This document shows, one piece after another, positions 2,149 to 33,745 of a stretch of DNA of 34,582 bases (positions are counted from its first letter, which is position 1; every line of letters begins with the position of its first letter). A program made the position numbers and the translations under genes. Location of the stretch: the IMG/VR virus record IMGVR_UViG_3300024352_000065, positions 1 through 34,582 of that record; one strand, given 5' to 3'. The notes beneath the pieces are model-generated. The model made no database searches. It was not told the origin of the DNA and saw nothing but the letters and a program-made list of their open reading frames with translations. This DNA comes from a virus.

Positions 2149-2544
2149 TTAAAATAATAAAACAAGATCCACAGGCAAAAGTTCCGCAGAAGATGGAGGA
2201 TTGCCAGCTGAATCAGCAAACCGTAATTGAATCGTCAAACGATTGTTACGGTCATAGTACCATGACGTACAACTCACGCCATAAACTTGTGATTGAACTC
2301 GTGTCACTATTATACCCAACACCGTCTTAGTTGAGACAAGGACTTGAGGTGTCGCGTGTTTCAACGTGACCGTTTTTGCTTCACCTGCAAAATTATCAGC
2401 GAAGGTAAGACCACTCCGAAGATTCCTCACAGTCTGCTCAACAAACTGCGCCATGTAGTCGAAAAACTCAGGTATTTGTTTTCCTGCATCGGTTTTACTA
2501 ATACGAGCCGTATCTAGTAGCCGAGTGATTGTGAATTTTGCCAT
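2149..2544 (-). CDS. Conserved phage virion-type protein of unknown function
   Basis: This 131-residue protein starts at ATG 2544, chosen because it directly follows the stop of the 28-residue gene (TGA-T-ATG); a TTG nine bases upstream is a poorer choice. The first half looks helical (residues 5-45, with ARISKTDAGKQIPEFFDY). The second half looks beta-rich, ending in a run of alternating hydrophobic residues and LPVDLVLLF. From memory this two-part pattern resembles a small protein found in many tailed phages near tail or head genes, but I cannot give it a proven role. It lies between large terminase and scaffold in one transcription unit, so it is probably a minor structural protein. Confidence 0.6.
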   Translation of the reverse strand: MAKFTITRLLDTARISKTDAGKQIPEFFDYMAQFVEQTVRNLRSGLTFADNFAGEAKTVTLKHATPQVLVSTKTVLGIIVTRVQSQVYGVSCTSWYYDRNNRLTIQLRFADSAGNPPSSAELLPVDLVLLF

Positions 2545-2545
2545 A

Positions 2546-2632
2546 TCAGTCAATCGCCTTTAAATAAATCCAGAGCATAATTGTCACATTTATCCAGACA
2601 AGAAACCATATCCAGTCGTTATATGACCACAT
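2546..2632 (-). CDS. 28-residue hydrophobic membrane peptide
   Basis: This small open frame has ATG at 2632 two bases after the large-terminase stop (TAA-CC-ATG), and its own TGA lies one base before the ATG of the next gene. It starts MWSYNDWIWFLVW and continues with about 20 hydrophobic, Trp-rich residues ending YLKAID, so it should be a single membrane-spanning peptide. The exact fit between two genes supports real, coupled translation. It may be a lysis helper or membrane factor, or simply a spacer that couples terminase to the next gene. No family was recognised. Confidence 0.5.
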   Translation of the reverse strand: MWSYNDWIWFLVWINVTIMLWIYLKAID

Positions 2633-2634
2633 GG

Positions 2635-4029
2635 TTAGCCCCCAAACTTTTTAGGCCCATCACCAAACTTTCTAGGAACTACATTTAAATCGTTTTTTGC
2701 AGGAGTATGCCAGTATCTGTCTTTGTTGATAATCTGCGCGGGATGCGGGTTGGTGCGATTAAGGCCCCTGATAGCATACATGAGAGCCGCAATTGCATCA
2801 CAGTGTCCTAGTGTTTGTGTCCTTTCAAAGTCGGTATGATGCTTATTGAAAGTACCTGACTGACAACTCATGATCGTCAATTTGCAATGTGGAAGGATGC
2901 GGATCTTGTCCTGTGTGAATCGATTAGCGAGCCCGTTTATGCTCGCCTCCCAGTCGCTCTTTTGCGGGAGCGCAATTGTCATTCCAAAAGTACGGCCCAA
3001 GTCAACGGCAAGTTGTCCTGGCACGTCGGCATAATAGACGTGCTCGGATTTATTAGGCTGTAACCACTTCCCGCCCCATTTTCGTCTGATATCTCGTACA
3101 ATATTCTCGGTTGGCGTGTTGGCTGGCCACCATAGTTCATCAGCCACGATATCGATTCCTTGCAGGAAGTCATATCCCACAACTGTGGCCACGGTAAGAT
3201 CCCGGACACCTCCCCAATCAATGTAGATTTCCCAATTACAGGTGTCTGGGACTTGCACGTCAGCAACATGCCGGTCGATATCAAAATCAGGTACGACAAC
3301 AATACTTTTATCCCGGATAATCTCATTAAGATATTCTCGCTTGAAATCATCCGTGTGTCTCCCACCTGCTCGACGTATGCAAGCCTCATACTGCGAATGG
3401 CTCAACGCTTTGTTGTCGTCTATTGTAAACGAATAAAAAGCGTTGTTCATTTGCGCCCTACTCATCGTCTCGGTAATAAAAGGATGATCGGGGATTTTTG
3501 GCAAAGTAGTCAAAAATATGATTTTGCCGCCGTCGCTGTGCGTCAAAGCAGGGCCTACGTCCGACCTTAGGGATTCAAGGTACTGATCGGGGTTGGCGTC
3601 AACAATCTCCTCGACGAATACGCCTTGGAGCGTCTTACCTCGCTGCGAGCCCGTGTTAAGGTCGAAGCCTCCCATCACGAGCTCAGAGCTACCGATGTAC
3701 CATTTACCTTCGCTCTTACTCGGCCTAATTAGGCCCTCTGGCGCATCCGCAATAATGTGTCTTAGCCTAGGCGTGACAATCTCGCGTGTTTGCTTGAGCG
3801 TAGGTCCGAGGATTAGAAAGCATTTGTCTTTCCACCGTAGGCATTGCTCGATTGCGATCAAGACGCCTAGATGCGACTTGCCAAACTGGCGAGCGCAAAG
3901 AACAACGGCCTCATCAATTTCTTTAGGTAGGGCATAAATAGCGTCATAGATCGAAACTTGTTGGTCCCATAGCTTATATTTCAAATTTCCCCGAAACCAC
4001 AACTGATCGGTTAGCGTCTTTAAATTCAT
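2635..4029 (-). CDS. terL: Terminase large subunit (packaging ATPase and nuclease)
   Basis: The protein has 464 residues, a normal length for the family. Visible motifs in order: a Walker A-type loop CARQFGKS at 45-52, Walker B with catalytic acid VFVEE at 137-141, coupling motif FLTTLP at 172-177, then the RNase H-like nuclease acids D271 (YIDWGG), D335 (YYADVPG) and D411 (GHCDAIAALMYA). It docks on the portal, pumps DNA into the head by ATP hydrolysis and cuts it. The start ATG 4029 overlaps the preceding small gene by 56 bases. It sits directly upstream of the head genes. Packaging type (headful or site-specific) cannot be read from the motifs. Confidence 0.96.
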   Translation of the reverse strand: MNLKTLTDQLWFRGNLKYKLWDQQVSIYDAIYALPKEIDEAVVLCARQFGKSHLGVLIAIEQCLRWKDKCFLILGPTLKQTREIVTPRLRHIIADAPEGLIRPSKSEGKWYIGSSELVMGGFDLNTGSQRGKTLQGVFVEEIVDANPDQYLESLRSDVGPALTHSDGGKIIFLTTLPKIPDHPFITETMSRAQMNNAFYSFTIDDNKALSHSQYEACIRRAGGRHTDDFKREYLNEIIRDKSIVVVPDFDIDRHVADVQVPDTCNWEIYIDWGGVRDLTVATVVGYDFLQGIDIVADELWWPANTPTENIVRDIRRKWGGKWLQPNKSEHVYYADVPGQLAVDLGRTFGMTIALPQKSDWEASINGLANRFTQDKIRILPHCKLTIMSCQSGTFNKHHTDFERTQTLGHCDAIAALMYAIRGLNRTNPHPAQIINKDRYWHTPAKNDLNVVPRKFGDGPKKFGG

Positions 4030-4198
4030 TTTCGCTCAATATATGCAATTCGCCCCCATGATTCACAATGGCGACGATATCACTATTCCCGTCGATAATT
4101 AGTGATCCATCCTTGTAACCATGCACTAAGTAGAGCCCAAAATCGGACTCTACCTGTGCAAGCTCTTCCCAAAATTTCTCAATTGCCTTCGTGTCCAT
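3974..4198 (-). CDS. Small protein between the terminase genes
   Basis: The 74-residue product is read from ATG 4198 (MDTKAIEKFWEELAQ); a longer frame to 4237 would run further into the preceding gene. The N-terminal third is helical and acidic. The rest looks like short beta strands (GLYLVHGYKDGSLIIDG, then DIVAIVNHGGELHIL). It overlaps its upstream neighbour by 20 bases and large terminase by 56, a compact arrangement typical of translationally coupled phage genes. I do not recognise the family. A packaging accessory role is suggested by position only. Confidence 0.6.
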   Translation of the reverse strand: MDTKAIEKFWEELAQVESDFGLYLVHGYKDGSLIIDGNSDIVAIVNHGGELHILSENEFKDANRSVVVSGKFEI

Positions 4199-4391
4199 GC
4201 TCAATCCATTCAGCAGCTGCAATAAGCCATGCAGCAATAGCGCGACATTCCCGCGCCGTTATTTGCTCTGCCCTAACACTGACAGCAAAAGGCCCATCGG
4301 CCATTCGCGTTGGAGCTATCACAGCGTGGTGCTCATCTGCCAAACTTCCTCGATTTCTTGGCCTATGAACTGAGAGCAAGGGGTTTTTCAT
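4179..4391 (-). CDS. Small protein downstream of small terminase
   Basis: The 70-residue product is read from ATG 4391, eight bases past the small-terminase stop, with a GAGG site five bases ahead of it; upstream in-frame ATGs exist but would overlap the terminase gene. The second half is an Ala/Trp-rich helix (ITARECRAIAAWLIAAAEWI). The middle segment (MADGPFAVSV) suggests a short beta strand. It is encoded between the terminase subunits and overlaps the next gene by 20 bases. The function is unknown; a packaging or early-lysis accessory role would be a guess. Confidence 0.6.
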   Translation of the reverse strand: MKNPLLSVHRPRNRGSLADEHHAVIAPTRMADGPFAVSVRAEQITARECRAIAAWLIAAAEWIEHGHEGN

Positions 4392-4398
4392 CAGTACC

Positions 4399-4809
4399 TC
4401 AGAGCTTGGGTTTTCCATATTTTCGCACAAGCTTCTCGATCTCGTGGTCTGGAATTGCTGAGAGGTCTAATTGCTCCACTTTCTGCTCAATCTTTTCAGA
4501 TTGCCCAAGATACTGTTTGCCTAGCCAAATCATCATCACGCGGTCGCCATTCTGCGCCCTTCTAAACTGTCGACGGCGTAGTGAGCACTTACCGCCAGCG
4601 CTGTACTTTTTATACACTTCCGAAAAACTCTTGTTATAATGCTCGGTTACGCGCCTAACGAGTGTCTCCTCGTCGATCTCAAACCAGCCTGCAATCTCTT
4701 CTTGTGTGCATTGCATTTGGCAACATTTTTCAAAGTCTCGGAAATCGATATCTTTGACTTTCGCGCCTGTTTCGCCTTCGGCTTTTGGTCGTTTCGTGAC
4801 GCCCGCCAT
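4399..4809 (-). CDS. terS: Terminase small subunit (DNA-recognition)
   Basis: The 136-residue protein starts 9 bases after a GGAGG site. Residues 24-55 hold a helix-turn-helix of the small-terminase kind (FRDFEKCCQMQCTQEEIAGW, then the recognition helix around EETLVRRV). A middle segment has the SLRRRQFRRAQNGDR and WLGKQYLGQ pattern that I know from small terminases and terminase-like regulators of many tailed phages. The basic C-terminus (LVRKYGKPKL) may contact the large subunit. It would bind the packaging site and load the large subunit, encoded three genes downstream. It is the first gene of the minus-strand packaging operon, divergent from the plus-strand accessory genes. Confidence 0.82.
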   Translation of the reverse strand: MAGVTKRPKAEGETGAKVKDIDFRDFEKCCQMQCTQEEIAGWFEIDEETLVRRVTEHYNKSFSEVYKKYSAGGKCSLRRRQFRRAQNGDRVMMIWLGKQYLGQSEKIEQKVEQLDLSAIPDHEIEKLVRKYGKPKL

Positions 4810-4838
4810 CTGGGTAGTCCTCCATCTGCTTGTTATGG

Positions 4839-4865
4839 TTGAAATTTACCACGGTTGCATACAAT
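4839..4865 (+). promoter_or_regulatory. Possible promoter of the plus-strand accessory operon
   Basis: In the short divergent gap between small terminase and the 4894 gene, TTGAAA (4839-4844) and TACAAT (4860-4865) resemble -35 and -10 boxes, with a short 15-base spacer. The reading is weak because of the spacer, but this gap must drive genes in both directions. The first plus gene has AAGGGG shortly before its ATG. Confidence 0.3.
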
Positions 4866-4893
4866 AGTTAAACTTTAAACACAAGGGGCAGCC

Positions 4894-5121
4894 ATGGCAT
4901 TTTTTGCGTTTGAGTTTAAGGACGCCGACGAGAAATACGACCAATTTGGAAACCGGCTTGGTATGTATTGGCGTTTTAATCACAAGGCGGAACGGAATGA
5001 TTGGGTAAAGCGTAGCCCTCGCCGAATCTTAGTGCCGAGTTCGGACAAAGAACTTAAAATGCTAAAATTCAGGGCAATCATTGATGCGTTTTGTATAGAT
5101 GATTATTACACGAAGAGGTAA
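4894..5121 (+). CDS. Hypothetical 75-residue protein
   Basis: This is the first gene of the plus-strand accessory operon, with an AAGGGG ribosome site. The protein is aromatic and charged (MAFFAFEFKDADEKYDQFGN at the start, YWRFNHKAERNDWVKRSPRR in the middle) and ends with a helical stretch. There is no membrane segment or metal-binding motif. Its stop lies three bases before the mini-ferritin start, so the two are co-translated. I do not recognise the family. Confidence 0.6.
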   Translation: MAFFAFEFKDADEKYDQFGNRLGMYWRFNHKAERNDWVKRSPRRILVPSSDKELKMLKFRAIIDAFCIDDYYTKR

Positions 5122-5124
5122 ACA

Positions 5125-5532
5125 ATGGAAGATTTGCTTCGATTGGCTAAAGTGTTTCGCGCTGCTCAGATTGTGGCCCACGACGCGCACAACAATATTT
5201 CCGGGCCATCTTTCTTTGCCGACCATGAATTCCTGGGCGAGCTTTATGGGACCTATGAGGACGCCTATGATTCCCTCGTCGAACGGTATATTGGTCTGAC
5301 GGGACGATCCGTCGATGGCGTGTCATTAGCTAAAGATGCGCTTGAGCTTGCCCCGGATTCACAAGTGCAAGCGATCTGGGATATTTTGTCGATGTTTGAG
5401 CGCACCGTTTGCAAAGTTTGCTATGCTTTTTGTGAGAAAGAAGGCGTCTCGGAAGGCACGAAACAGCTGGTAGGGGAGCTTTGCAATCAAGCTGAGATGA
5501 GGCAATACAAGCTTAAGCAGCGCATGAGCTAA
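5125..5532 (+). CDS. Dps-like mini-ferritin (putative)
   Basis: The protein has 135 residues and is largely helical. The segment HNNISGPSFFADHEF with the following helix matches the Dps signature (HWNvkGpnF..lHe...). The spacing of ferroxidase ligands is the family one: H22, H34 twelve residues later, then D49 (+15) and E53 (+19). The acid normally four residues after the second His is Gly here (G38), with E39 next to it, so the site may be altered. Dps proteins form 12-subunit shells that oxidise and store iron and protect DNA. The protein is somewhat short for the family. A GAGG site precedes ATG 5125. It may protect phage DNA from peroxide; that is inference. Confidence 0.7.
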   Translation: MEDLLRLAKVFRAAQIVAHDAHNNISGPSFFADHEFLGELYGTYEDAYDSLVERYIGLTGRSVDGVSLAKDALELAPDSQVQAIWDILSMFERTVCKVCYAFCEKEGVSEGTKQLVGELCNQAEMRQYKLKQRMS

Positions 5533-5658
5533 TGATTTCGGATGTTTGAATCGTTCCACTATTGCTTGACTGAAACGATAGTAAGATGTAAATCTTCCTC
5601 ATCGTCAATCAAGACGCTGTGGGTTTAGACTCCATGTTTAAAACGAATCAAAAGATTT

Positions 5659-5760
5659 TTGCTGGGCAAGACGGATGACCAGTTTTTAGGCTGGTATCAA
5701 TATTGGCAATATGAACAAGGCTATTCTGACGATAGCTCATACATGAGGCACCCAAAATGA
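5659..5760 (+). CDS. 33-residue ORF coupled to the next gene, possibly frameshifted
   Basis: This frame (FLGWYQYWQYEQGYSDDSSY near its middle) ends in TGA overlapping the ATG of the next gene as ATGA, the mark of a real coupled gene. The frame opens only after TAG 5626-5628 and has no ATG; the first usable start would be TTG 5659. An ATG at 5634 reads MFKTNQKIFAG in the frame one base off and stops early. A one-base change in the A/T-rich run around 5650-5660 would join the two into one protein of about 40 residues. It may be a decayed gene, a sequencing error or a coupled leader. Confidence 0.35.
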   Translation: MLGKTDDQFLGWYQYWQYEQGYSDDSSYMRHPK

Positions 5761-6002
5761 ACGCGACAGAAGCGAAGGACCTTGCCGATCAAGTAAATTC
5801 TGCCAATCCAGAAAAGGCCATGCAGGAGGCTATGGCCGTGATCAAATTGGCCGCTGAAAAAGGCTTATATTCTGATTTGGTAGTCTTGCGTGAGGTGGAT
5901 GCCGAGGCTATTTTGCCCATCTTGAGCGTTTTGGGATACAAGACAGATGTGAAGGTAGCGGAATTGCCGGAAATGCGGCAAGTGTGGATTACTTGGGATT
6001 GA
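5757..6002 (+). CDS. Hypothetical 81-residue phage protein
   Basis: This small protein has an acidic helical N-terminus (MNATEAKDLADQVNSANPEK), a second helix, and a beta-like C-terminus built around LGYKTDVKVAELP and ending in VWITWD. The shape (two helices, a short 'LGY' element, a strand ending in a W or SW-type motif) recurs in small proteins of many phages, usually near accessory genes, without a known role. The gene starts on the stop of the preceding short frame. It is soluble, with no signal peptide. Confidence 0.6.
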   Translation: MNATEAKDLADQVNSANPEKAMQEAMAVIKLAAEKGLYSDLVVLREVDAEAILPILSVLGYKTDVKVAELPEMRQVWITWD

Positions 6003-6026
6003 TGTTAGAGAAAGGTGTGTTTTTAG

Positions 6027-6395
6027 ATGCAAAATAAGATTTTTGCTGGCTGCGATAGTGCCGGTCTATTTGATTTGTATGAGCATACAGACAACAAGCA
6101 CGATTTTTTACTTTCTGTCCGCCAGTTTAGGGACATGAAGACAAAAAATCTAAGGATCAAAAAAGCTCAAAAACATGCCGAGCACTTTTTAAAGATTGCT
6201 TTGAAAAAAGAACCCAAAAAAGGTGCGTTTTCAAGGGGTCAAATTGCAAAGGCTCTCATTGAGTCAGCTACTGAATCCGCTTGCAAAAACGGCTTACCCG
6301 CGAAAGATTACCGCGCTTTTATTACATCAAAATGCGGCAAGGACTTTTTGGAAATCGTTTGTACCAAATTGGGCTATCAAGAAGCTCTTGGATAA
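6027..6395 (+). CDS. Hypothetical 122-residue basic protein
   Basis: The protein is lysine-rich, especially residues 38-75 (KTKNLRIKKAQKHAEHFLKI), with a helical pattern throughout and three scattered cysteines. It starts at ATG 6027, with AAAGGTG upstream. The first codons resemble the abandoned start at 5634-5661 (a 14-base identity), so the two may share history. The charge suggests nucleic-acid or protein binding, but no domain is recognised. It lies in the accessory operon after the mini-ferritin gene. Confidence 0.55.
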   Translation: MQNKIFAGCDSAGLFDLYEHTDNKHDFLLSVRQFRDMKTKNLRIKKAQKHAEHFLKIALKKEPKKGAFSRGQIAKALIESATESACKNGLPAKDYRAFITSKCGKDFLEIVCTKLGYQEALG

Positions 6396-6403
6396 GGATT
6401 GTG

Positions 6404-6616
6404 ATGAGACATTTTCACTTTGATAACCCCGACGATTATTGGGCTTTGTTCAATAATTCCAGCGATCGAAACAAGCTTGTGACGGATATTAGCCTTTTTG
6501 CCACGTCCGATTTTGGAAACCGCTCGTCCGAAATGATGGACTATCAGCAGGCCGCCATGCAATGGCTGAAAGATTTTGTTGAAAACGGTTGCACTGAGAA
6601 GCAGGACGTGTTTTAA
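6404..6616 (+). CDS. Hypothetical 70-residue protein
   Basis: The start ATG 6404 was chosen for its AAGGA site six bases upstream and because longer in-frame versions overlap the previous gene heavily. The protein begins MRHFHFDNPDDYWALFNNSS and ends in an amphipathic helix (QQAAMQWLKDFVENG). It is acidic and soluble, and of no known family. It is the last gene of the plus-strand accessory operon; a strong hairpin terminator follows at 6657. Confidence 0.55.
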   Translation: MRHFHFDNPDDYWALFNNSSDRNKLVTDISLFATSDFGNRSSEMMDYQQAAMQWLKDFVENGCTEKQDVF

Positions 6617-6656
6617 GAGATTTGTTCGCCAGTGATAGAGACGACGATGGAAATGG

Positions 6657-6684
6657 AAGGGGCTACATAGCCCCTTTTATTATT
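6657..6684 (+). terminator. Rho-independent terminator of the accessory operon
   Basis: AAGGGGCT, loop ACAT and AGCCCCTT form a perfect 8-bp stem, followed by TTATTATT. It lies 40 bases after the last plus-strand gene. The end of the opposing minus-strand gene overlaps the T-rich part, so the two operons meet here. Confidence 0.88.
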
Positions 6685-6850
6685 CTGTCTTTTGATTTGC
6701 TGCCAATGCCTGCGCTAACACGTTTCCATTTCGGTTAATGATTTCAATACAGCGCTCGATTACTGCCACCGTTTCTTGCAAGCTTTCAGCCAACTCATTT
6801 GCGTCACCGTGTTTCAATGCTGCCTTCCATTTTGTGAAATTAACATTCAT
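6680..6850 (-). CDS. Hypothetical 56-residue helical protein
   Basis: This small gene begins at ATG 6850, 11 bases inside the end of its upstream neighbour. The protein (MNVNFTKWKAALKHGDANEL at the start, then ETVAVIERCIEIINRNGNVL) reads as two amphipathic helices without membrane segments. It is the last gene of the minus-strand replication operon, and its stop lies beside the terminator of the converging operon. Supported by overlap, codon pattern and a sensible protein; no family recognised. Confidence 0.5.
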   Translation of the reverse strand: MNVNFTKWKAALKHGDANELAESLQETVAVIERCIEIINRNGNVLAQALAANQKTE

Positions 6851-7049
6851 GGTTAATGCGCCTTCTTAATAGCTCGTTTTCGTCAAGCATGTTGACTACG
6901 ACGGTTTTGTACATCACTTGTAATCCGTCTTCATAGCCATCGCGTTCGCCTTTTTTATAGGCAAAATGATAAACGCACAAATTTATACCTAGGCAAAACA
7001 CTAGGACAAATTGATTTTGTGGCATTAAAAGCCATTCATGCCAACTCAT
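6840..7049 (-). CDS. Small single-span membrane protein
   Basis: The protein has 69 residues. The N-terminal part is followed by a hydrophobic span (about residues 12-30, FVLVFCLGINLCVYHFAY), then a charged cytoplasmic-type tail rich in Glu, Asp and Arg. The ATG overlaps the stop of the preceding gene as ATGA. It may act at the host membrane (accessory, exclusion or lysis related), but nothing decides this. It is part of the chain of coupled small genes behind the resolvase. Confidence 0.6.
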   Translation of the reverse strand: MSWHEWLLMPQNQFVLVFCLGINLCVYHFAYKKGERDGYEDGLQVMYKTVVVNMLDENELLRRRINHEC

Positions 7050-7336
7050 TCTTTAAAGCCTAATTCTTCTAAAAATTCCGGCAAAGGGCTTAGGTGATCA
7101 GGTGTATATTCGGGTTTTGCTGACCATTTAGCAAAACCTCTGGCCCACGCTTGCAACACTTGAGTCTTTGTCACACAGATGACTTGCTGCTCAACTTCCC
7201 AATCATCGGCAATCAAAGCATCATACATTGTGTTTCTCAAAACCTCTTCCCCTTCATGAGGCTCTGCCCAATCTCCTTTGTTCCAACTTGCTCGCCTAAA
7301 TCTTTTACCGCTCTTTATTGCCTCAATGACGTTCAT
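7046..7336 (-). CDS. Tad2/DUF2829-like protein (possible anti-Thoeris), tentative
   Basis: The 96-residue protein begins MNVIEAIKSGKRFRRASWNK, close to the usual start of the DUF2829/Tad2 fold (an 'EAL..lk.GkkvrR.gW' element), and has DDWEV at 44-48, where that family ends with 'l.a.DWev'. The middle of the domain is shorter than usual, and about 48 residues follow with two Trp-rich helices. Tad2 proteins sequester the signal molecules of Thoeris defence, and many DUF2829 proteins are uncharacterised. The match is by motif only. ATGA overlaps couple it to both neighbours. Confidence 0.45.
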   Translation of the reverse strand: MNVIEAIKSGKRFRRASWNKGDWAEPHEGEEVLRNTMYDALIADDWEVEQQVICVTKTQVLQAWARGFAKWSAKPEYTPDHLSPLPEFLEELGFKE

Positions 7337-7566
7337 CGTTTCCCACCCATACTGCTCATTTCAAGGGCTGCAAGCCTGTCAGTCGATTTTTTGACTGTCT
7401 CCGCTAGGGAATTGTGGGCTTCATTCACCGCTTTCGTGAGCTTTTTCATGTCTTCCACTAATTCTTGCAATTCTTTTCGGATCTTAGCGCGATTCGCAAA
7501 ATCAATGGCAAATAATCCCGCCAATGCTCCGCAAGCCATCAGATTGATACCTAACAACACTTCCAT
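7333..7566 (-). CDS. Membrane-anchored coiled-coil protein
   Basis: The 77-residue product is read from ATG 7566 (MEVLLGINLMACGALAGLFA), which overlaps the preceding stop as TGATG; a TTG three bases upstream is less likely. The first 20-odd residues form a membrane span or signal anchor. Residues 28-68 are a heptad-like coiled coil (KELQELVEDMKKLTKAVNEA). The design, an anchor plus a coiled coil, recalls small phage envelope or i-spanin-like proteins, but no outer-membrane partner is visible. It lies within the replication operon's string of small genes. Confidence 0.6.
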   Translation of the reverse strand: MEVLLGINLMACGALAGLFAIDFANRAKIRKELQELVEDMKKLTKAVNEAHNSLAETVKKSTDRLAALEMSSMGGKR

Positions 7567-7799
7567 CAAAATAACTCCATTCCGTTTTGTGGGAGATAAG
7601 AGACGATTTCATAATCGTAAAATCTCAAAGCTTTTAGCCTTTGGTTTGATTCTGCCAGAATTTCACGACTTGTCGCGGCATGTATCATTATCGCTTCTTG
7701 TCGCCAAGCACTAAATTTATATCTCAAGAATCTAAACGATACGAGTACAGGGACATAATTTGGTTCCCCATCACTGCTGAATATTGGCATTTTCGACAC
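7566..7799 (-). CDS. Hypothetical small protein, start uncertain
   Basis: The longest reading begins with GTG 7799, which has GAGGAG eight bases upstream, giving 77 residues; an internal ATG 7688 would give about 41 (MIHAATSREILAESNQRLKA). The GTG version overlaps the zinc-ribbon gene by 76 bases in a different frame. The C-terminal part is clearly protein-like and its stop couples to the next gene as TGATG. There is no known domain. The GTG start is favoured by the ribosome site, the ATG by the overlap. Confidence 0.45.
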   Translation of the reverse strand: MSKMPIFSSDGEPNYVPVLVSFRFLRYKFSAWRQEAIMIHAATSREILAESNQRLKALRFYDYEIVSYLPQNGMELF

Positions 7800-7900
7800 G
7801 TATACACTCCTCGACCTTCAACCGTCCGAAGGTGTCCGGGACTAAACCAAAACTTGTGGTCACAAGTCAACTGGCGCACCCATCGGACGATGAAGTTCAT
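7724..7900 (-). CDS. Small zinc-ribbon-type protein
   Basis: The product has 58 residues. The ATG overlaps the resolvase stop as ATGA. The protein carries LTCDHKFWF near the start and YTCRKCQY in the middle: a C-x-H pair and a C-x-x-C pair about 22 residues apart, which could bind one zinc ion. Small phage proteins of this build (CxH...W, CxxC) are common next to replication genes and have unknown roles. The last 76 bases overlap the start of the next gene if its GTG start is used. Metal binding and the call rest on the motif; the coupling makes the gene credible. Confidence 0.55.
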   Translation of the reverse strand: MNFIVRWVRQLTCDHKFWFSPGHLRTVEGRGVYTCRKCQYSAVMGNQIMSLYSYRLDS

Positions 7901-8370
7901 AAATGTTTGACTCCGTATAAGGCTATGAGAGCTGCATCGACTACACCTTCATGCAGTCTACCAGCACCGTTTGCTATTTGTGGAGCTACGTCGCTCCAAA
8001 GTCTCCTAAAAGCAGTACTAGAGCGGTATTTTGGAGCGTCACAACTATTTGTGCCCTTGTGCATTTGCATAGTCCAGTGACGAGGTGGCACTAGATGATA
8101 AGCAACACCATAAATTTCCATCGCTGCAATCAATTCACCGAAACCGCACCCATAAGTAAATGCCGAGACTATCCCTTGTTTCGGCATAGTTTGCGCTTTT
8201 TCCAAGAAAACGGCGCGGGGCTTCCACGTCTCAAGAAGCGTATACAATAACCTTCCGCTTGGGCTTAACGTCCAACTCAGCACTTGGCCATCGTGATCTA
8301 GCGCTACTATTGCTCCCGCTTTGCCTGGGTCGATTCCAAAATAGATACGGCTTGGTGGTTGGTTGCTCAT
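7897..8370 (-). CDS. RuvC-like Holliday-junction resolvase
   Basis: The 157-residue protein has the RNase H-type layout of phage RuvC relatives: FGIDPGKAG with D14, FLEKAQTMPKQG with E57, and a C-terminal HEGVVDAALIALYG element with E141 and D145 as the remaining acids. The phrase 'MPKQG' followed by a Gly-rich turn is typical of the family. It should cut four-way junctions made by recombination or branched replication before packaging. The start ATG 8370 has a GAGAG site. It lies downstream of the initiator and loader genes, as resolvases often do, and is coupled to the zinc-ribbon gene. Confidence 0.85.
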   Translation of the reverse strand: MSNQPPSRIYFGIDPGKAGAIVALDHDGQVLSWTLSPSGRLLYTLLETWKPRAVFLEKAQTMPKQGIVSAFTYGCGFGELIAAMEIYGVAYHLVPPRHWTMQMHKGTNSCDAPKYRSSTAFRRLWSDVAPQIANGAGRLHEGVVDAALIALYGVKHL

Positions 8371-8491
8371 TATACTCTCTAATGTAATCGTTTACTTGTT
8401 TAAATGGTAGTAGTAGCAGTGATGCAATTGTTTCCGCTGTCATGTCGTATTGGCGTAAAAATATGATGGCCTGTTTGTCTTCGTAGCGCAT
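8231..8491 (-). CDS. Small DNA-binding-like ORF overlapping the resolvase
   Basis: The 86-residue frame is read from ATG 8491, with GGGAGA upstream. The first 45 residues (MRYEDKQAIIFLRQYDMTAE, then a helix ending FKQVNDYIREY) look like a helix-turn-helix with 'TAETIASLLLLP' as the likely second helix. The last 140 bases overlap the resolvase in another frame, and there the sequence looks less protein-like (RQSGSNSSARSRW), so this part may be carried along. The function may be regulatory. I consider the first half good and the extent doubtful. Confidence 0.4.
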   Translation of the reverse strand: MRYEDKQAIIFLRQYDMTAETIASLLLLPFKQVNDYIREYNEQPTTKPYLFWNRPRQSGSNSSARSRWPSAELDVKPKRKVIVYAS

Positions 8492-8558
8492 ACATGGTCT
8501 CCCTTTTCCATCTATGGTATGATCTAATCTCCTGCCTGGCACCTGTTGTTGATTTCAT
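8400..8558 (-). CDS. Possible 52-residue ORF with a good ribosome site
   Basis: ATG 8558 has GAAGGAG upstream (11-base spacing) and opens a basic frame (MKSTTGARQEIRSYHRWKRE) that overlaps the 8491 frame. Upstream of the ATG the same frame stays open for about 16 codons. The protein is not convincing in its last third (Thr/His-rich). Either this or the 8491 frame is real, or both are, as overlapping phage genes. Confidence 0.25.
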   Translation of the reverse strand: MKSTTGARQEIRSYHRWKRETMYALRRQTGHHIFTPIRHDSGNNCITATTTI

Positions 8559-8589
8559 TGCCCTTTTTGCTCCTTCGTTTCTAATGGCC

Positions 8590-8676
8590 CTAATTTGCCT
8601 TGTATTGCGTTCTTATTCCTGTCCTATGTCTGCCATTACCTAGCCTATTTGCGCTTATCATTGCGTCAATTTGCAT
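8590..8676 (-). CDS. Possible 28-residue ORF after the loader gene
   Basis: ATG 8674-8676 starts one base after the loader stop (TGA-T-ATG) and opens MQIDAMISANRLGNGRHRTG, ending at TAG 8590. The protein is short and basic. Placement suggests coupled translation, but nothing else supports it. Confidence 0.25.
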   Translation of the reverse strand: MQIDAMISANRLGNGRHRTGIRTQYKAN

Positions 8677-8677
8677 A

Positions 8678-9256
8678 TCATTTCGCCCGTACTTCTCTAG
8701 TCTGCACAAGTGACAGCACGTCGAGGACGTTCCTGGGTTCTTCCGGGAGGGCTTGGCGCTCATGAGAGGGGGGCAGGCCGAGGCTATCTCTGCGACGGTC
8801 GATGTCGGCGATATCGAGCAAAGCTTTTGCGCTCTCTCGCCATTGCGCCTTGAGCGTGGAAACGTTGTCGTAACTCGCAATCTCACAAACGACTCTCCAC
8901 CCGCCCATATTCTCCACGACTTTCCAACCAGTCTCGCCGATAGCTGTTCGCACCAAGTCCTGTTTGCTCTTGAGTGAGCCAAAACGCTCGATGCCTCCCC
9001 AAATCTTGTCAGCGATCAAACGAGCCTCGGCGTCATGGTCGGGCTTGGGATCTATCGCGTCCAGGATTTCTTTGATCGCAGGGAAACGAGTAAACTTTTC
9101 GTGCAAAGTACCAAGCACCGCAAAAAGTTGATGCGCGGGATACTTCTCGAAGATGCGATACCACGCGCTGAGTTGGTGTGCGTCAAACTCTGGCGCTTGA
9201 AGCGGAAGAATTGCTTTTACTGCGTCGATGAACTTTTTGAACTCTTGTGGCGTCAT
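8678..9256 (-). CDS. Putative replicative helicase loader (lambda P-like role)
   Basis: The 192-residue protein starts MTPQEFKKFIDAVKAILPLQ and continues with a helical N-terminal domain (residues about 1-70) of the kind seen in phage helicase loaders and inhibitors (short helices, FP and 'KFTRFPAIKEILDAI' near 50-65). The rest is helical, with VVENMGGWRVVCEIASYDN around residue 110. It directly follows the O-like initiator, with an ATGA overlap at 9253-9256, an initiator-loader pairing typical of phages that borrow the host helicase and polymerase. No Walker A motif is visible, so it is not a DnaC-type ATPase. Assignment is by neighbourhood and shape. Confidence 0.55.
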   Translation of the reverse strand: MTPQEFKKFIDAVKAILPLQAPEFDAHQLSAWYRIFEKYPAHQLFAVLGTLHEKFTRFPAIKEILDAIDPKPDHDAEARLIADKIWGGIERFGSLKSKQDLVRTAIGETGWKVVENMGGWRVVCEIASYDNVSTLKAQWRESAKALLDIADIDRRRDSLGLPPSHERQALPEEPRNVLDVLSLVQTREVRAK

Positions 9257-10303: not shown

Positions 10304-10354
10304 CCTTTCTTTCTTGTTAATGCGAGTATCCATTAAAAGTTGTGTGTGATTGGT

Positions 10355-10381
10355 GCCCAGACTTTAAAGGCAAGTCTGGGC
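10355..10381 (+). other. Perfect 10-bp hairpin ahead of the tRNA
   Basis: GCCCAGACTT (10355-10364) and AAGTCTGGGC (10372-10381) flank a 7-base loop. A run of six T follows after an 11-base gap, too far for a standard terminator. It lies about 80 bases upstream of the tRNA. It may be a processing signal, a protein-binding site or part of the same structured leader. Confidence 0.55.
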
Positions 10382-10459
10382 TCCGACAACCCTTTTTTGG
10401 AAATAATTATCAACTTGCGCTTGCCGAAGATTGTGAGCAACATAGGCAGACCTTCACTT

Positions 10460-10535
10460 TGCCAAGTAGCTCAGTCGGTAGAGCGTCGCGCTGTTAACGC
10501 GAATGTCGCAGGTTCGAGCCCTGCCTTGGCAGCCA
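10460..10535 (+). tRNA. tRNA-Asn (anticodon GTT) with encoded CCA
   Basis: A complete cloverleaf can be drawn: acceptor TGCCAAG pairs with CTTGGCA, the D arm contains AGCTCAGTCGGTAGAGC, the anticodon stem TCGCG/CGCGA holds loop CTGTTAA with anticodon GTT at 10493-10495, and the T arm GCAGG-TTCGAGC-CCTGC is canonical. The discriminator G and a genomic CCA end the gene. It reads AAC and AAT codons. It is the only tRNA in the window and stands apart from protein genes, between the leader hairpins and the CAP-protein gene. Phage tRNAs usually top up host supply or replace host tRNAs destroyed by defence nucleases. Confidence 0.97.
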
Positions 10536-10597
10536 TCCCCTTTTGCTCAAAACTATGGCACCATAAACTAAACATTTTTGAGTTTGTGGAGGTGCTT

Positions 10598-11077
10598 ATG
10601 GTCCGGCGAATAGTGCTAGGTCTGGCGTTATTCCTACAAAGTACCGTGCTTTTAGCGGATTGCTACAAAACCGACATTGGGACATGTGGCGTGGAAAAGT
10701 CCATGCTCGAGGCCACCAATGCCTTTCGCGCTCAATACGGGCTTCCCGCTCTACAGTACAAAAAAGAGCTAAATTGGGCCGCTCGGAAATGGTCGGAAAG
10801 CATGGCTGCCACGGGTAGGCTGTCCCATGACGGCTTCCCTACCCTGCGCAATCAAACGATTATCCTCGAATTTCCCGCCAGTAATCAAAAAGTACACGGC
10901 GAAAATGTGGCCTATTTCCAAGGCTACAAACCGCCAGATTTTGGCCGATTTTTTGTGGATATGTGGATTAAAAGCGGACCCCATCGCCAGAACATGCTGC
11001 GAAATTTTCGCTTTATCGGTGTGGGATATGGGCGTAATAATGGGCAGCATTACGCGACACAACTTTTTGCTTGGTAA
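10598..11077 (+). CDS. Secreted CAP-domain (SCP/PR1-like) protein, likely intact site
   Basis: The 159-residue product is read from ATG 10598 with GGAGG six bases ahead. The first 20 residues are a signal peptide (MVRRIVLGLALFLQSTVLLA, cut before DCYK). The mature part has the CAP order: N-terminal helix with LEATNAFRAQYGLPAL, then LSHDGF, VHGENVAYF, and WIKSGPHRQNMLRNF followed by IGVGYG. The two His (SHDG, PHRQN) and the Glu of GEN are in the usual places of the CAP cleft. Bacterial CAP proteins are secreted and mostly of unknown function. A second CAP protein is encoded at 29872-30327. It may act in the cell envelope during lysis or entry. Confidence 0.85.
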   Translation: MVRRIVLGLALFLQSTVLLADCYKTDIGTCGVEKSMLEATNAFRAQYGLPALQYKKELNWAARKWSESMAATGRLSHDGFPTLRNQTIILEFPASNQKVHGENVAYFQGYKPPDFGRFFVDMWIKSGPHRQNMLRNFRFIGVGYGRNNGQHYATQLFAW

Positions 11078-18449: not shown

Positions 18450-20544
18450 TGTTTCGCCTTCCTTGCAAAGTTTCTTTGGTGCCGTCAGAATAAATAATTA
18501 TTGTTTTGTTTCTGCTTGGGCTATATTTTTCATCGATGATTGTCCGTGAAGACGATTGAGGTGGTAAAGATTTACCCTCGCCAGCTCTTCCTGAGGCATC
18601 AATCAAACCTTGAACAAAACTGCGCCTTGCTTCTTGCTTGTACTTAATCGTTCTTTCGTCATCACCCGCAATTATCCTGTAACCTGCCAAAATTCTTTTA
18701 ATTTCTTCTTTTTGAGCACCGGCACCCGTGACGGAACGAAGGAGCATTTCTACAAGGTTATTTGAGGCTGTATCATAAAGCCTGTCATCATCACTCAGTA
18801 TCTTGTTTCCCATCGGCGAAGCAGTACCACCAAGTCCTCCACCAATAATCGATCTTGTCCCAGGTCTATATGGTTTAATTCCTTGAGCTTGATCGCCATT
18901 TTCCATGGCTTCAACTTGAGCCAAAGCAGGTATCGCAACTGTGGCTTGAAGGCCGGTTTTTCGTTCGGATTCTGTAAGATTTCCGCCACTTGTTCCTATA
19001 CCGGATGCAATCTTGTCTTTTTTGATTCCTTCATTAACTTTATTACTACGTTGTTTTTCCTCCTGAGCCATAATTTTTAGCTCAAGTTCTTTTTGTCTCA
19101 GTTGAGCCATATATTGCTGATAGCGAACTTGCTCACGCATCAACTCGCCGCGACGTTGCTCGCCAGCGACTTTCATGTCCAAGTCAATTTTTCTCAGTAC
19201 ATTGTTCGCTTCCATTTTCGCTTGTTCAAGGCTTCTCAAATTGTCTGGAATAGGTAGCTGTCGCGTTTGTCCAGTTACTGGGTTTCTCTCAATGATTACA
19301 GGATTACCTTTTGCATCCATGAACATCGGCAAAGTAGACCATGGATTATTAGGCTCGTACCCAGGTGGAAGTTGACGAGGCATCAAGTTTCCTGCCTCAT
19401 CGTACATAAGAATCTCGCCCGATTGGTCTTTCGTAGGTGGTTTATAATAAGGCAAAATTTTGGGAGGTTTTGGGCCTGTACCTTTTAATAGCTTACTCGA
19501 CAAGGAAGCGCCTTTAAGTAAGCTATCTTCGCGTTCAGCTTCAAGAGCCATCTGATCTCTGATCTGGCCCATATCTCGATCATAAAGGGATTTAATCAAA
19601 GGCTGAAAATCTGCTACTTCAGAGCGCTTACCTTGCAAGGTGCCCATCTTTGATGCACTACCTGCTAACAAAGCGCCAAGTTGATTTACAGCGTTTAAAT
19701 CTCTTGCGTTGCCCATGCGATCAAGTCGATCCGCATCCAAAGCCTGACTATTTAATTTTCGTTTCAAGTATTCATACAGTTTTGACCTGAAATCTTCGCC
19801 ATCGCCTTGGGTTGCATTCAAGGTTGAGTTACTTGTGTTAGACCTATTAGGTAAGTATTCAAACACATTTGCAGAACTTGTGCTCACACCCGGTTTAAAT
19901 TTTTCCACAGGAAGGTCATATGCGCCAAGAATTGGCGACATGTTGTTTGTGAACTCTGGCACTTGCAAACCTAAATTGTAAGGTTCACGTTCACCCATCA
20001 ACCCAAACGATGATTCTCTAGGAGCATCCACGGCAGAAACAACCGGCGCACTGGAAAAGTTACCTTCGTCTTTAATTTTTGAAGACTTTGGCACTTTTGG
20101 CAAAGTAGTAGCAGGTTTTTTTGATGTTTCTGCCTCCATCAATTTCTTTTCTTCATTCGGCGTGAATTTTTTTGGCAAATTAGGATTTATTCCAGCATTT
20201 TCGACGCCACCCTTTTTTGTTTTTAATCTATCTTGTAAACGCTTTCGTTTTTCCTCAAAAACTACGTCCACAAAATTCGGATTTCCAATATCACCACCAG
20301 GGTCATAACCCGGAGCGTATGGTGTAGCAGGGTATGTGCTCTTGTATGCTCCTTGACCTTGCAAAGGTATTTCTTGAGGCGAACCCGGTCTTTGACCTTG
20401 TATTGGCAAATTTATTTCTTCAGGAAAAGGCCCATTTGACGGCTTACCTGGAAGATTTATGTGTGAATTTCTCAATTTTTCGAGAAAATCTGCCGGTTTT
20501 TCTTCGTAATTTCCATCTAATGGTAATTGCTTTAAAGGCATCAT
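18430..20544 (-). CDS. Probable internal virion (DNA-ejection) protein, 704 residues
   Basis: The first 130 residues are Pro/Gly/Gln-rich and disordered (INLPIQGQRPGSPQEIPLQG). The centre (about 280-370 and 440-540) is helical and strongly charged (MREQVRYQQYMAQLRQKELE). A Gly-rich turn (GIKPYRPGTRSIIGGGLGGT) comes before the C-terminal helices. No enzyme motif is seen. Encoded in the row of four large proteins between portal and appendage genes, with ATGA coupling upstream, it most likely forms part of the internal core or injection tube. Two start ATGs lie side by side; the first was used. Confidence 0.55.
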   Translation of the reverse strand: MMPLKQLPLDGNYEEKPADFLEKLRNSHINLPGKPSNGPFPEEINLPIQGQRPGSPQEIPLQGQGAYKSTYPATPYAPGYDPGGDIGNPNFVDVVFEEKRKRLQDRLKTKKGGVENAGINPNLPKKFTPNEEKKLMEAETSKKPATTLPKVPKSSKIKDEGNFSSAPVVSAVDAPRESSFGLMGEREPYNLGLQVPEFTNNMSPILGAYDLPVEKFKPGVSTSSANVFEYLPNRSNTSNSTLNATQGDGEDFRSKLYEYLKRKLNSQALDADRLDRMGNARDLNAVNQLGALLAGSASKMGTLQGKRSEVADFQPLIKSLYDRDMGQIRDQMALEAEREDSLLKGASLSSKLLKGTGPKPPKILPYYKPPTKDQSGEILMYDEAGNLMPRQLPPGYEPNNPWSTLPMFMDAKGNPVIIERNPVTGQTRQLPIPDNLRSLEQAKMEANNVLRKIDLDMKVAGEQRRGELMREQVRYQQYMAQLRQKELELKIMAQEEKQRSNKVNEGIKKDKIASGIGTSGGNLTESERKTGLQATVAIPALAQVEAMENGDQAQGIKPYRPGTRSIIGGGLGGTASPMGNKILSDDDRLYDTASNNLVEMLLRSVTGAGAQKEEIKRILAGYRIIAGDDERTIKYKQEARRSFVQGLIDASGRAGEGKSLPPQSSSRTIIDEKYSPSRNKTIIIYSDGTKETLQGRRNNGQPKR

Positions 20545-29871: not shown

Positions 29872-30327
29872 TCACTTTGGTTGAATACGAAAAACCACTA
29901 CCCATTTATCGCCTACGTGCGCCGTACCTATAGCCAGATTATCAGGATTTAGAAGGATTTTCTTGCCCCTAAAATCTCGCATCCATCGGAAAATAGCCGT
30001 CTCAGGAAGCTCGAAACCGCATCCAACTAGCTCCGCCTGGGCCTCGGTGCCACAATCTTTGGCTCTCTCTTCAAAAGTCGATCCATCAGATCCAGTATGA
30101 CCGCATGAACGAGAAATCATCAAATCTTTAGCATGACGATTAGCTGCACAAGTAAGCTCCGTCGTGGAAAGCAACAAAGGCAAGTCGTTTTGCGACCTGA
30201 CTTCATTAATCTCCACTTGCAAATCATCTAATCCAGGATACGGAGTCGGAATTGAATCAGATGGAGGTACTGGCATCAAAATTTGAGCATTGGCAATTGA
30301 TGCTAGAAAAAGTTTTGCCAACATCAT
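29872..30327 (-). CDS. Secreted CAP-domain (SCP/PR1-like) protein with altered site
   Basis: The 151-residue product is read from ATG 30327 (GGAG eight bases ahead). The first 15 residues (MMLAKLFLASIANAQ) are a short signal peptide. CAP elements follow in order: INEVRSQNDLPLLL, ANRHAKDLM, CGHTGSDGSTFEE, AQAELVGCG, and FRWMRDFRGKKILLNPDNLA with IGTAHVG. The first His is present, but where active CAP proteins have 'GHR.NIL' this one has GKKIL, so the second His is lost, and 'GEN' has become AEL. Cysteines at CGHTG, KDCG and VGCG may form disulphides. It sits among tail genes, so it may be virion-linked; this is inference. Confidence 0.8.
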   Translation of the reverse strand: MMLAKLFLASIANAQILMPVPPSDSIPTPYPGLDDLQVEINEVRSQNDLPLLLSTTELTCAANRHAKDLMISRSCGHTGSDGSTFEERAKDCGTEAQAELVGCGFELPETAIFRWMRDFRGKKILLNPDNLAIGTAHVGDKWVVVFRIQPK

Positions 30328-30361
30328 TTTCAAATCTCCGTCAAGTCTTTAAAACAGTTTT

Positions 30362-33300
30362 TTACAAGGTACTGCTGAGTAGCGTACTACCAAACAAAGC
30401 AGGTGCAAGCTCTGCAGAGGCTGTACTTGCTACAAAATGCCACCTAGCTTGTGACGATTGTTGTGTTGGTGCAAAATAAATTCGGTTTTGAGTAGGTGCA
30501 TAACTACCGCCTTGATAACCAGCAGTCAATGCCGTTACTCCATGAGCATACGCTACAACGCTACCAGTTGCGCAATCAATGTAGTGCCAGTTGGTTTGAC
30601 TCGCTTGCTCATAGGGTACGAAATAGATACGGTTTTGAGTCGGAGAATACACCCCGCCATGATATGCCTCATATACCGCCGTTACTCCATGAGCATAAGC
30701 TACAACACTACCAGTTGAGCAATCGACGTAGTGCCAGTTTGCCACGTTCCCTTGTGTAGCTGGAACAAAATAAATGCGGTTTTGAGTCGGGGAATACACT
30801 GCTCCTTGGTACGCAAATGATGCCGCTGTTACTCCGTGAGCATATGCTACAACGCTACCCGTTGAGCAATCGATGTAATGCCAGTTCGTCTGGGTAGCTT
30901 GTCCCAATGGAGATAAGTAGATCCGATTTTGAGTCGGCGAATATCCGCCTGTTACATACGCAAACGCTACTGCTGATATTCCATGAGCATAGGCTACAAC
31001 GCTACCCGTTGCGCAATTTATGTAGTGCCAGTTCGTTTGGTTTGATTGTCCATAAGGTACTAGATAAATCCTATTTTGGGTCGGGGAATAAACTCCGCCA
31101 GCATAACCATTGGCTACTGCTGTTATTCCGTGAGCATAAGCCACAACACTACCAGTTGAGCAATCGATGTAATGCCAGTTCGTTTGGTTTGATTGTGCAT
31201 TAGGCACCAAATAGATACGGTTTTGTGTTGGGGAATAAACTCCCCCCCAATATGCGTCTGCTACTGCTGTTACTCCGTGAGCATAAGCCACAACGCTACC
31301 CGTTGCGCAATCAATGTAATGCCAGTTCGTCTGGTTAGCTTGTTGCGAAGGAATCAAATAGATTCGGTTTTGGCTTGGGGAATAGACTGCACCGTTGTAT
31401 GCATTGAGGACCGTCGTGACACCATTAATATACGTAGCAATTCTTTGCCTGGCGTTAACATTCTTGACGTGCAGATTTACGATCTGATCTAAATACTGGT
31501 TAATGTTTTGTGTACCAGTATCGCTTGGAAGTACGTTAACGCTTCCAATCCCTCCAAACAAAGCCCACGTATTATTTGCTCGACCTTCGAATGTTTTCAA
31601 ATCAGTGTTGTAACGCATCATCCCGTCAACTGGAGACACTGGCCTATCAGCTGTGGCCCCAGATGCGATTTTAATAAATCCCGTACCGTTCTGCGTCGAA
31701 TTACCTGAAATGGTCAAAGTATCAGCTGTAGAATCACCAAGTATCGTGTTTCCAGTAACATTCAATGTCACTGCATTGACAGTCGTACCGCCTACAGTTG
31801 GGGATGAAATCGAAGTTGCTGTGATTGTCCCCACAACATCTAGAGCTTGTGTCGGTGTTACCGTACCGATACCAACACGGTTATTAACAGCATCAATCAC
31901 CAAAGTATTTGCATCAAAATTGAGATTATTGGGAATCAAAATGGAATTGGCCTGAATCGTCACCGTATCCGTCGACGCATCACCTAACGTAGTATTGCCA
32001 TCGATTCTCACATTCCCATTAACATGCAATAGCTCAGATGGAGTCGTGCCAATACCAACACGACCACTACTATCAATACGCATACTCTCAAGAGGTGGTC
32101 CACCCGCAAAGTTGGTTATCGTATTAAATACGACTCGACCACCAATGAACGCATTGGCACCGTCTATGTAATCAACAGCAGCTATGATTTGAGCCGCTCT
32201 ACCAAATCCAACTCCATCGGCAAAACTTCCGGCAAATTCTAATGTCCCAAGATTAGTGTTGACAGTGACTAATCCGCCAGTGCCAATTGTATTACTATTG
32301 CTTTTCGTAAACAAAACCTTGCTCGAGGAAATTGCTGTCGTGCTCCAAGAGCTTAAGGACATAGGGAAGTTTCCATGAATCTGAAATTCCGCTTGCCCAC
32401 CTATCCCTACCCAATCAGTTGATATGGATCTGTTTTTGAGAATCCTACCATTTGTATCAATGACAAATGGGGATGTATCTGGGCTTGCAGAATCCTCGAC
32501 AACAAAACAATCGGAAGCTCCCGTGTTTGTTATCGTCATGTTGCCGAATACGTGCATCGTGCTAGTTGGGGAAGCAATCCCAACACCTACTCTATTATTT
32601 GCTGCGTCTACTACTAAGGTATTGCTATCAAAATTCAAACCATTGGGAATCGTAATTGCTGTTCCCTGAATCGTCATTACATCAGTCGATGCATCGCCAA
32701 ACTGCGTGTTGCCGTTCACCGTTAAGTCAGTGGACACTTTGGCAGCGCCTACAACGTCCAAAGCGACCGTTGGAGAAGCAATACCTACGCCGACCCTATT
32801 GTTAGCTGCGTCGATTACAAGTGTGTTGGAATCAAAATTAAGGCCATTTGGTAGTGTAACAGCTGTGCCATTGATAGTCAGAACGTCGCTTGCGCCATCT
32901 CCAAGCGCCGTGTTGCCGCTAGAGTTCAGCGATACGGCATTAACCGTTGTAGCCGCGACAGTTGTGGCAGTCACGGTGCCAGATACATCTAGAGCGGTTG
33001 TCGGAGAAGTATTACCAATCCCAACGCGATTCGTCGAAGCGTTGATGAAAAGCGTATTACTGTCAATATTCAAATTATTGGGTATGGATACTGCAAGGGA
33101 GTTAATTGTAAGCGCATCACTTGACTGATCTCCCAAAGTTACGCCGCCGTTTAGCGCCGTTGCTCCATTAATTGTCAAAGCACCGCTAGTGTTAATTGCT
33201 GTCGATCCGCCAATTGTGCCACTAGTAATAGCGTCTCCGCTTACCTTTCCAGGTGTCGAGATGACTCCTGAAATGTCTGCATCGACTACTTGGCCAGGAG

Positions 33301-33733: not shown

Positions 33734-33745
33734 TTTTTTCCTCAA

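Follow-up and report, generated by a model that had tools for sequence, protein, structure and literature searches.

Gene content of the locus

The DNA analysed is a viral stretch of 34,582 nucleotides (IMG/VR record IMGVR_UViG_3300024352_000065, positions 1 to 34,582), referred to below as the window; a second contig of the same virus (L001) was 99.97% identical over 12,166 bases. The window encodes a small and a large terminase, a phrog_156 portal, an internal-virion-like protein and RecT, with a match to an SU10-type major capsid protein at its right edge, and this gene set would fit a short-tailed phage. The packaging and head genes are on one strand, and a Dps-like gene, the second gene of a plus-strand group, is on the other. 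The features of the locus are listed here, with residues numbered in the product of the Dps-like gene (the window protein).

4399-4809, minus strand: small terminase, on one flank of the cassette
4894-6681, plus strand: gene cassette (genes 4894-6616), flanked by minus-strand genes
4894-5121, plus strand: 75-aa ORF ahead of the Dps-like gene, ending 3 bases before it; same place in L002
5114-5118, plus strand: AGAGG, Shine-Dalgarno-like sequence, 6 bases ahead of the ATG (from the sequence)
5125-5532, plus strand: Dps-like mini-ferritin coding sequence, ATG start, 135 aa (ORF list, model and profile search)
5188-5190, plus strand: codon of H22, at the position of Listeria Dps H31; N23 follows, where cellular Dps has Trp
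5224-5226, plus strand: codon of H34, at the position of Listeria H43
5236-5238, plus strand: codon of G38, at the position of Listeria D47; Gly in 48/48 clade members
5257-5259, plus strand: codon of E45, a position with Glu in 45/48 clade members; on the helix B face common to H34, G38 and D49
5269-5283, plus strand: codons of D49 (5269-5271) and E53 (5281-5283), at the positions of Listeria D58 and E62
6652-6681: terminator-like hairpin closing the cassette; such sites are barely commoner here than in shuffles
6840-7049, minus strand: gene on the other flank of the cassette

The window gene and its copy in L002 share 75% identity in DNA and 85% in protein, with a pS of 0.82 (synonymous sites being saturated) and a pN of 0.086. 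Positions 5125-5532 therefore represent a real gene, which is under strong purifying selection. A chance pattern or a decayed gene was ruled out by this selection, together with the invariant ligands and the match of the clade profile to Dps described below. The neighbouring ORFs in the window gave weak matches alone, to families of unknown or doubtful relevance. Two small ORFs directly after the Dps-like gene (5757-6002 and 6027-6395) are absent from L002, and the segment concerned (5527-6403) represents a recent insertion or loss.

Sequence and predicted fold of the window protein

The initial annotation described a Dps-like mini-ferritin with an altered ferroxidase ligand, and this description was borne out by the structural model, the fold search, the profile search and the tree. 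Residues H22, H34, D49 and E53 (H-x11-H-x14-D-x3-E) were confirmed at the spacing of the Dps ferroxidase centre, the intervals of 12, 15 and 4 being those of H31, H43, D58 and E62 in Listeria Dps, and the residue four past the second His is Gly (G38), as had been noted.

When the single sequence was searched against the PDB with phmmer, Dps chains were matched (best 1n1q, E = 4e-5), and against PHROG it matched phrog_3636 (E = 1.5e-9) and phrog_858 (E = 1.1e-5). Its scores against the Pfam families Ferritin PF00210 (13.7 bits, gathering cut-off 24.5) and DUF5856 (19.9 bits, cut-off 34.6) were below threshold. A profile made from 34 clade members, with no canonical Dps included, matched Dps2 of D. 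radiodurans and MrgA at E = 3e-10 to 6e-10 over nearly the full length, in support of the proposed relationship; a wider profile including one canonical Dps reached E = 2.5e-18.

The AlphaFold2 single-chain model (pLDDT 95.9, pTM 0.90) is predicted with confidence as a four-helix ferritin bundle with Dps topology, comprising helices 2-24 (A), 30-59 (B), 65-75 (BC), 81-103 (C) and 110-134 (D), the short helix in the BC loop among them. All Foldseek matches in the PDB at E <= 0.001 were Dps-family chains. Neither of the two outcomes named in the initial annotation as refuting it, a confident model other than a four-helix bundle or the lack of a profile match to Dps, was thus obtained. The best solved match by VIA-align was MrgA (Z 18.5, rmsd 1.8, 134 residues). 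Bacterioferritins, including the mini-bacterioferritin 9qq5, share the four-helix bundle and also scored Z 17-18, so the assignment to Dps rests on fold, ligand pattern and sequence profile rather than on Z alone. Bacterioferritins have an intrasubunit site of the ExxH type, whereas a search of the window protein sequence for E-x-x-H found none, and an intrasubunit site of the bacterioferritin or classical ferritin kind was ruled out on this ground despite the fold match. The predicted subunit fold is securely that of Dps; a twelve-subunit cage, its catalysis and its role are what we infer for the protein.

Helix A begins at residue 2, and the Lys/Arg-rich N-terminal tail of the DNA-coating Dps subtype is absent. 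The pI of the protein is 4.9. Both properties argue against DNA coating, so that DNA compaction, one of the roles put forward initially, appears doubtful.

Conservation and alteration of the metal site

Relatives were gathered by searches of viral contigs, and the clade that includes the window protein comprises ∼50 distinct proteins, all of them from phages. In an alignment of 48 distinct members (median pairwise identity 42%), R12, Q15, H19, H22, D33, H34, G38, Y41, D49 and E53 were invariant. As Gly38 is found in 48/48 members, it is a signature of the clade and not a sign of decay. Position 23, usually Trp in Dps, is N in 44/48 members, H in three and L in one; position 45, to which the initial annotation made no reference, is Glu in 45/48; and position 39 (E39 in the window), directly after G38, holds a semi-conserved acid (E/D in 41/48). 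The helix C residue E92 is kept in 46/48 members; the corresponding residue of MrgA is Tyr. Fourteen Dps proteins from plasmids, a MAG and other phages were used for comparison: all 14 have Trp at position 23, at position 38 they carry D, E, Q or M and never G, and position 45 is unconserved. Across 54 phage and cellular sequences the only invariant columns were those of H22, H34, D49 and E53.

The reported metal holders in Listeria Dps are H31, D58 and E62 (PMC8389677), equivalent to H22, D49 and E53 of the window protein, and these ligands are retained. The acid at position 38 is also missing from D. radiodurans Dps2 (Q) and from a Sphingobium Dps (M), and is thus neither essential to the Dps family nor defining for it. 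By this comparison the direct ligands stay and the variation touches an outer acid and the neighbouring Trp. On the helix B wheel E45 is within 20 degrees of H34 and G38, which places it among the residues turned towards the partner subunit in Dps. Judged by helical-wheel angles alone, E45 may replace the lost acid of position 38.

The Trp beside the first ligand in Dps is a radical trap, and its loss along with the position-38 acid may mean that the chemistry differs from that of usual Dps. Lacking both residues, the cage could sequester iron or another metal (Zn, Mn), or act as a regulator or scaffold, with no ferroxidase activity. The presence of G38 and the loss of Trp23 throughout the clade, set against the 14 comparison proteins, are in keeping with such a redox-silent binder of metal, DNA or protein, as are the PHROG labels of the wider family, 'DNA binding protein' and 'starvation-inducible transcriptional regulator', both given by homology. 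However, the strict retention of H22, H34, D49 and E53 at such sequence divergence argues for a working metal site, and the tail that would bind DNA is lacking; we regard this explanation as unlikely.

Phylogeny and related families

In a tree rooted by midpoint only, the clade formed one side of a branch (89/95), with canonical phage Dps and cellular Dps beside it (98/87), and a split at 100/100 set the DUF5856/rI.-1 group apart from both. The window protein fell with Dps. A host-acquired copy of a cellular Dps is not favoured, given the separation of the clade from cellular Dps. One genome-contig scan with two short peptide patterns, by which cellular members could be missed, returned a single canonical Dps (L038). 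When the phylum of L038 was surveyed for PF00210, most of the proteins returned were bacterioferritins and a single locus had the Dps motif; plasmid Dps genes were therefore taken as the cellular comparison.

Cellular Dps proteins (MrgA of B. subtilis, 2chp; Listeria Dps, 1qgh; D. radiodurans Dps2, 2c2j) resemble the window protein in the BC-helix fold, the H/H/D/E spacing and the length of the core. The window protein differs from them in having G38 instead of D/E (Q in Dps2), N23 instead of Trp and conserved E45 and E92, in lacking an N-terminal tail, and in overall sequence (∼20% identity). The family phrog_3636 ('DNA binding protein', a label given by homology) was matched by 50/54 relatives scanned, the window protein included, and pools cellular-type Dps with this clade. 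Members of DUF5856, phrog_858 and T4-type rI.-1 share the H/H/D/E columns, and in most of them position 38 is G; however, they form a separate clade, give a lower-confidence model without the BC helix, and are portal-linked or found in T4-like genomes. By sequence kinship T4-type rI.-1, which is found beside the lysis-inhibition gene rI (NC_054931.1, phage T2), is a Dps-like DUF5856 protein; no study of rI.-1 function was found in the literature. Among the Dps of Lactobacillus phages and 'Gratiaviridae' gut phages, the one in the fold library, from phage Semele, matches the window model only weakly.

The initial annotation considered such shells rare in small short-tailed phages, which does not hold: Kuravirus podophages and 7-11-type Salmonella phages (SE131/7-11) generally carry Dps, and the portal-linked DUF5856 family adds to these. 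A Salmonella phage Dps used as query matched 217 phage records, among which Kuravirus-type podophages were numerous, and an rI.-1/DUF5856 relative is present in 1,442 of the 50,697 phage records searched. Phage Dps has been described in Lactobacillus phages and in gut phages (PMC6669764, PMC8008677). Literature searches on Asp47, on auxiliary genes and on phage-encoded Dps as a theme gave nothing. Phage-borne Dps is thus known and common, and the new part is the clade with its fixed changes.

The Dps of Kuravirus and 7-11-type phages sits with thymidylate synthase and other nucleotide-metabolism genes. This arrangement, which belongs to other Dps branches, is compatible with a cage that supplies phage or host enzymes from a store of host iron rather than protecting DNA, and the anatomy expected of such a protein would be the same as that of a soluble protective cage. 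However, no iron-using enzyme gene was recognised beside the Dps-like gene in the window, and a supply of iron is considered very improbable as its purpose.

Position of the gene in other phages

The place of the gene varies among phages, as expected of an auxiliary (moron) gene. In L063 and L016 it lies between the portal and large terminase genes on the opposite strand, in L010 and L055 just ahead of an exonuclease/Sak4/DNA polymerase block, and in L014 and L015 inside head modules. The phrog_156 portal type of the window is shared by two of 20 other carriers, and no conserved operon partner was found across the whole clade.

The head-module positions bear on the main rival to a soluble cage, namely that the protein is housed in the head or attached to the portal, where it would hold iron, organise DNA or be injected to shield the entering genome. 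Support for a particle-borne use comes from relatives. In L015 the gene (7908-8726) has head-module ORFs on one side and the major head protein on the other, and RLREL-type peptides at the ends of its product recur in neighbouring ORFs (four matches against 0.06 expected in shuffles). Peptides of this type also occur inside the Dps-like protein and in two neighbouring head-module ORFs (2221-5850 and 6112-7908); they may be head-targeting or protease-site signals. In L014 the gene is part of a head/tail-sheath module and its product has a repeated N-terminal extension. A threefold ETIEKVAS repeat was seen in this ORF, and several ORFs between 3100 and 10135 of the same tail-sheath phage begin with a common MNKYAxxY..KLA-like peptide. 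The head-module place or the terminal extensions suggest a particle role in these two phages.

DUF5856 relatives, in turn, directly follow the portal gene in ∼15 podophage contigs (L008, at 19884-20306; L018-L022; L024-L027; L029-L031; L035; L037). Here the Dps-like gene starts ∼30 bases downstream of the portal and precedes the next head genes, with invariant H/H/D/E columns. An Ackermannviridae relative is annotated as 'unknown structural protein', and a ferritin-like protein, gp217, was detected by mass spectrometry in preparations of phage Sajous1, for which the authors warned of contamination (PMC10892097). Proteins named 'prohead protease' also match the Dps-like model; in three from uncultured phages (BFVD A0A6J7XDU5, A0A6J7WPK9 and A0A6J7WIS1) the match covers one stretch.

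Nothing in the window points to such a use: the window protein has no extension, and its gene is outside the head module, on the opposite strand, in a cassette closed by a terminator-like hairpin of its own. A virion protein is accordingly judged improbable here. The earlier suggestion that iron is held for the particle thus finds no backing for the window gene, and is a live option for some relatives.

Proposed function

The reading that we somewhat favour is that the gene encodes a Dps-type mini-ferritin of a phage clade, a moron-like auxiliary gene whose product would act as a soluble iron-oxidising cage and lower iron and peroxide damage during infection. The shell would be hollow and made of twelve subunits, with Fe(II) bound at every two-fold contact between H22 (with H34) on one side and D49/E53 from the adjoining subunit on the other. 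Peroxide or oxygen would oxidise this iron, the interior of the shell would store it, and less hydroxyl radical would form in the infected cell. The lost acid of position 38 would be either non-essential or replaced in the site by E45 from the facing helix. DNA would be protected through the removal of iron and peroxide, and not by coating. Protection from peroxide, as first suggested for this protein, is plausible. The phage-borne Dps of Lactobacillus phages and of 'Gratiaviridae' gut phages, likened here by description, has similarly been proposed to protect the host against oxidative damage (PMC6669764, PMC8008677).

A further idea, possible but doubtful, is that the site was rebuilt as a unit in a phage-only Dps clade, with Gly taking the place of the acid at position 38, the Trp beside the first ligand dropped, and a new acid, E45, becoming fixed on the facing helix a single turn ahead of D49. 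The resulting cage would differ in its metal chemistry and be adapted to infection or, in certain lineages (L014, L015), to being packed into the virion head.

Some phages, of different build, keep a mini-ferritin lineage of their own in which the iron site is altered yet strictly conserved. Through this clade one can test, on natural variation, which of the ligands are required for Dps chemistry, and can approach the question whether phages cope with iron and peroxide stress in the host or carry cages in the particle.

Other genes of the window

Two secreted-type proteins with a CAP domain (PF00188) are encoded at 10340-11077 (plus strand, E = 1.8e-14) and 29872-30333 (minus strand, E = 4.5e-6). 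A fibre-like ORF of 1127 aa (30362-33745, minus strand) contains ∼7 tandem repeats of the form YSPTQNRIYLVP..QxNQTNWHYIDCSTGSVVAYAHGVTAV.
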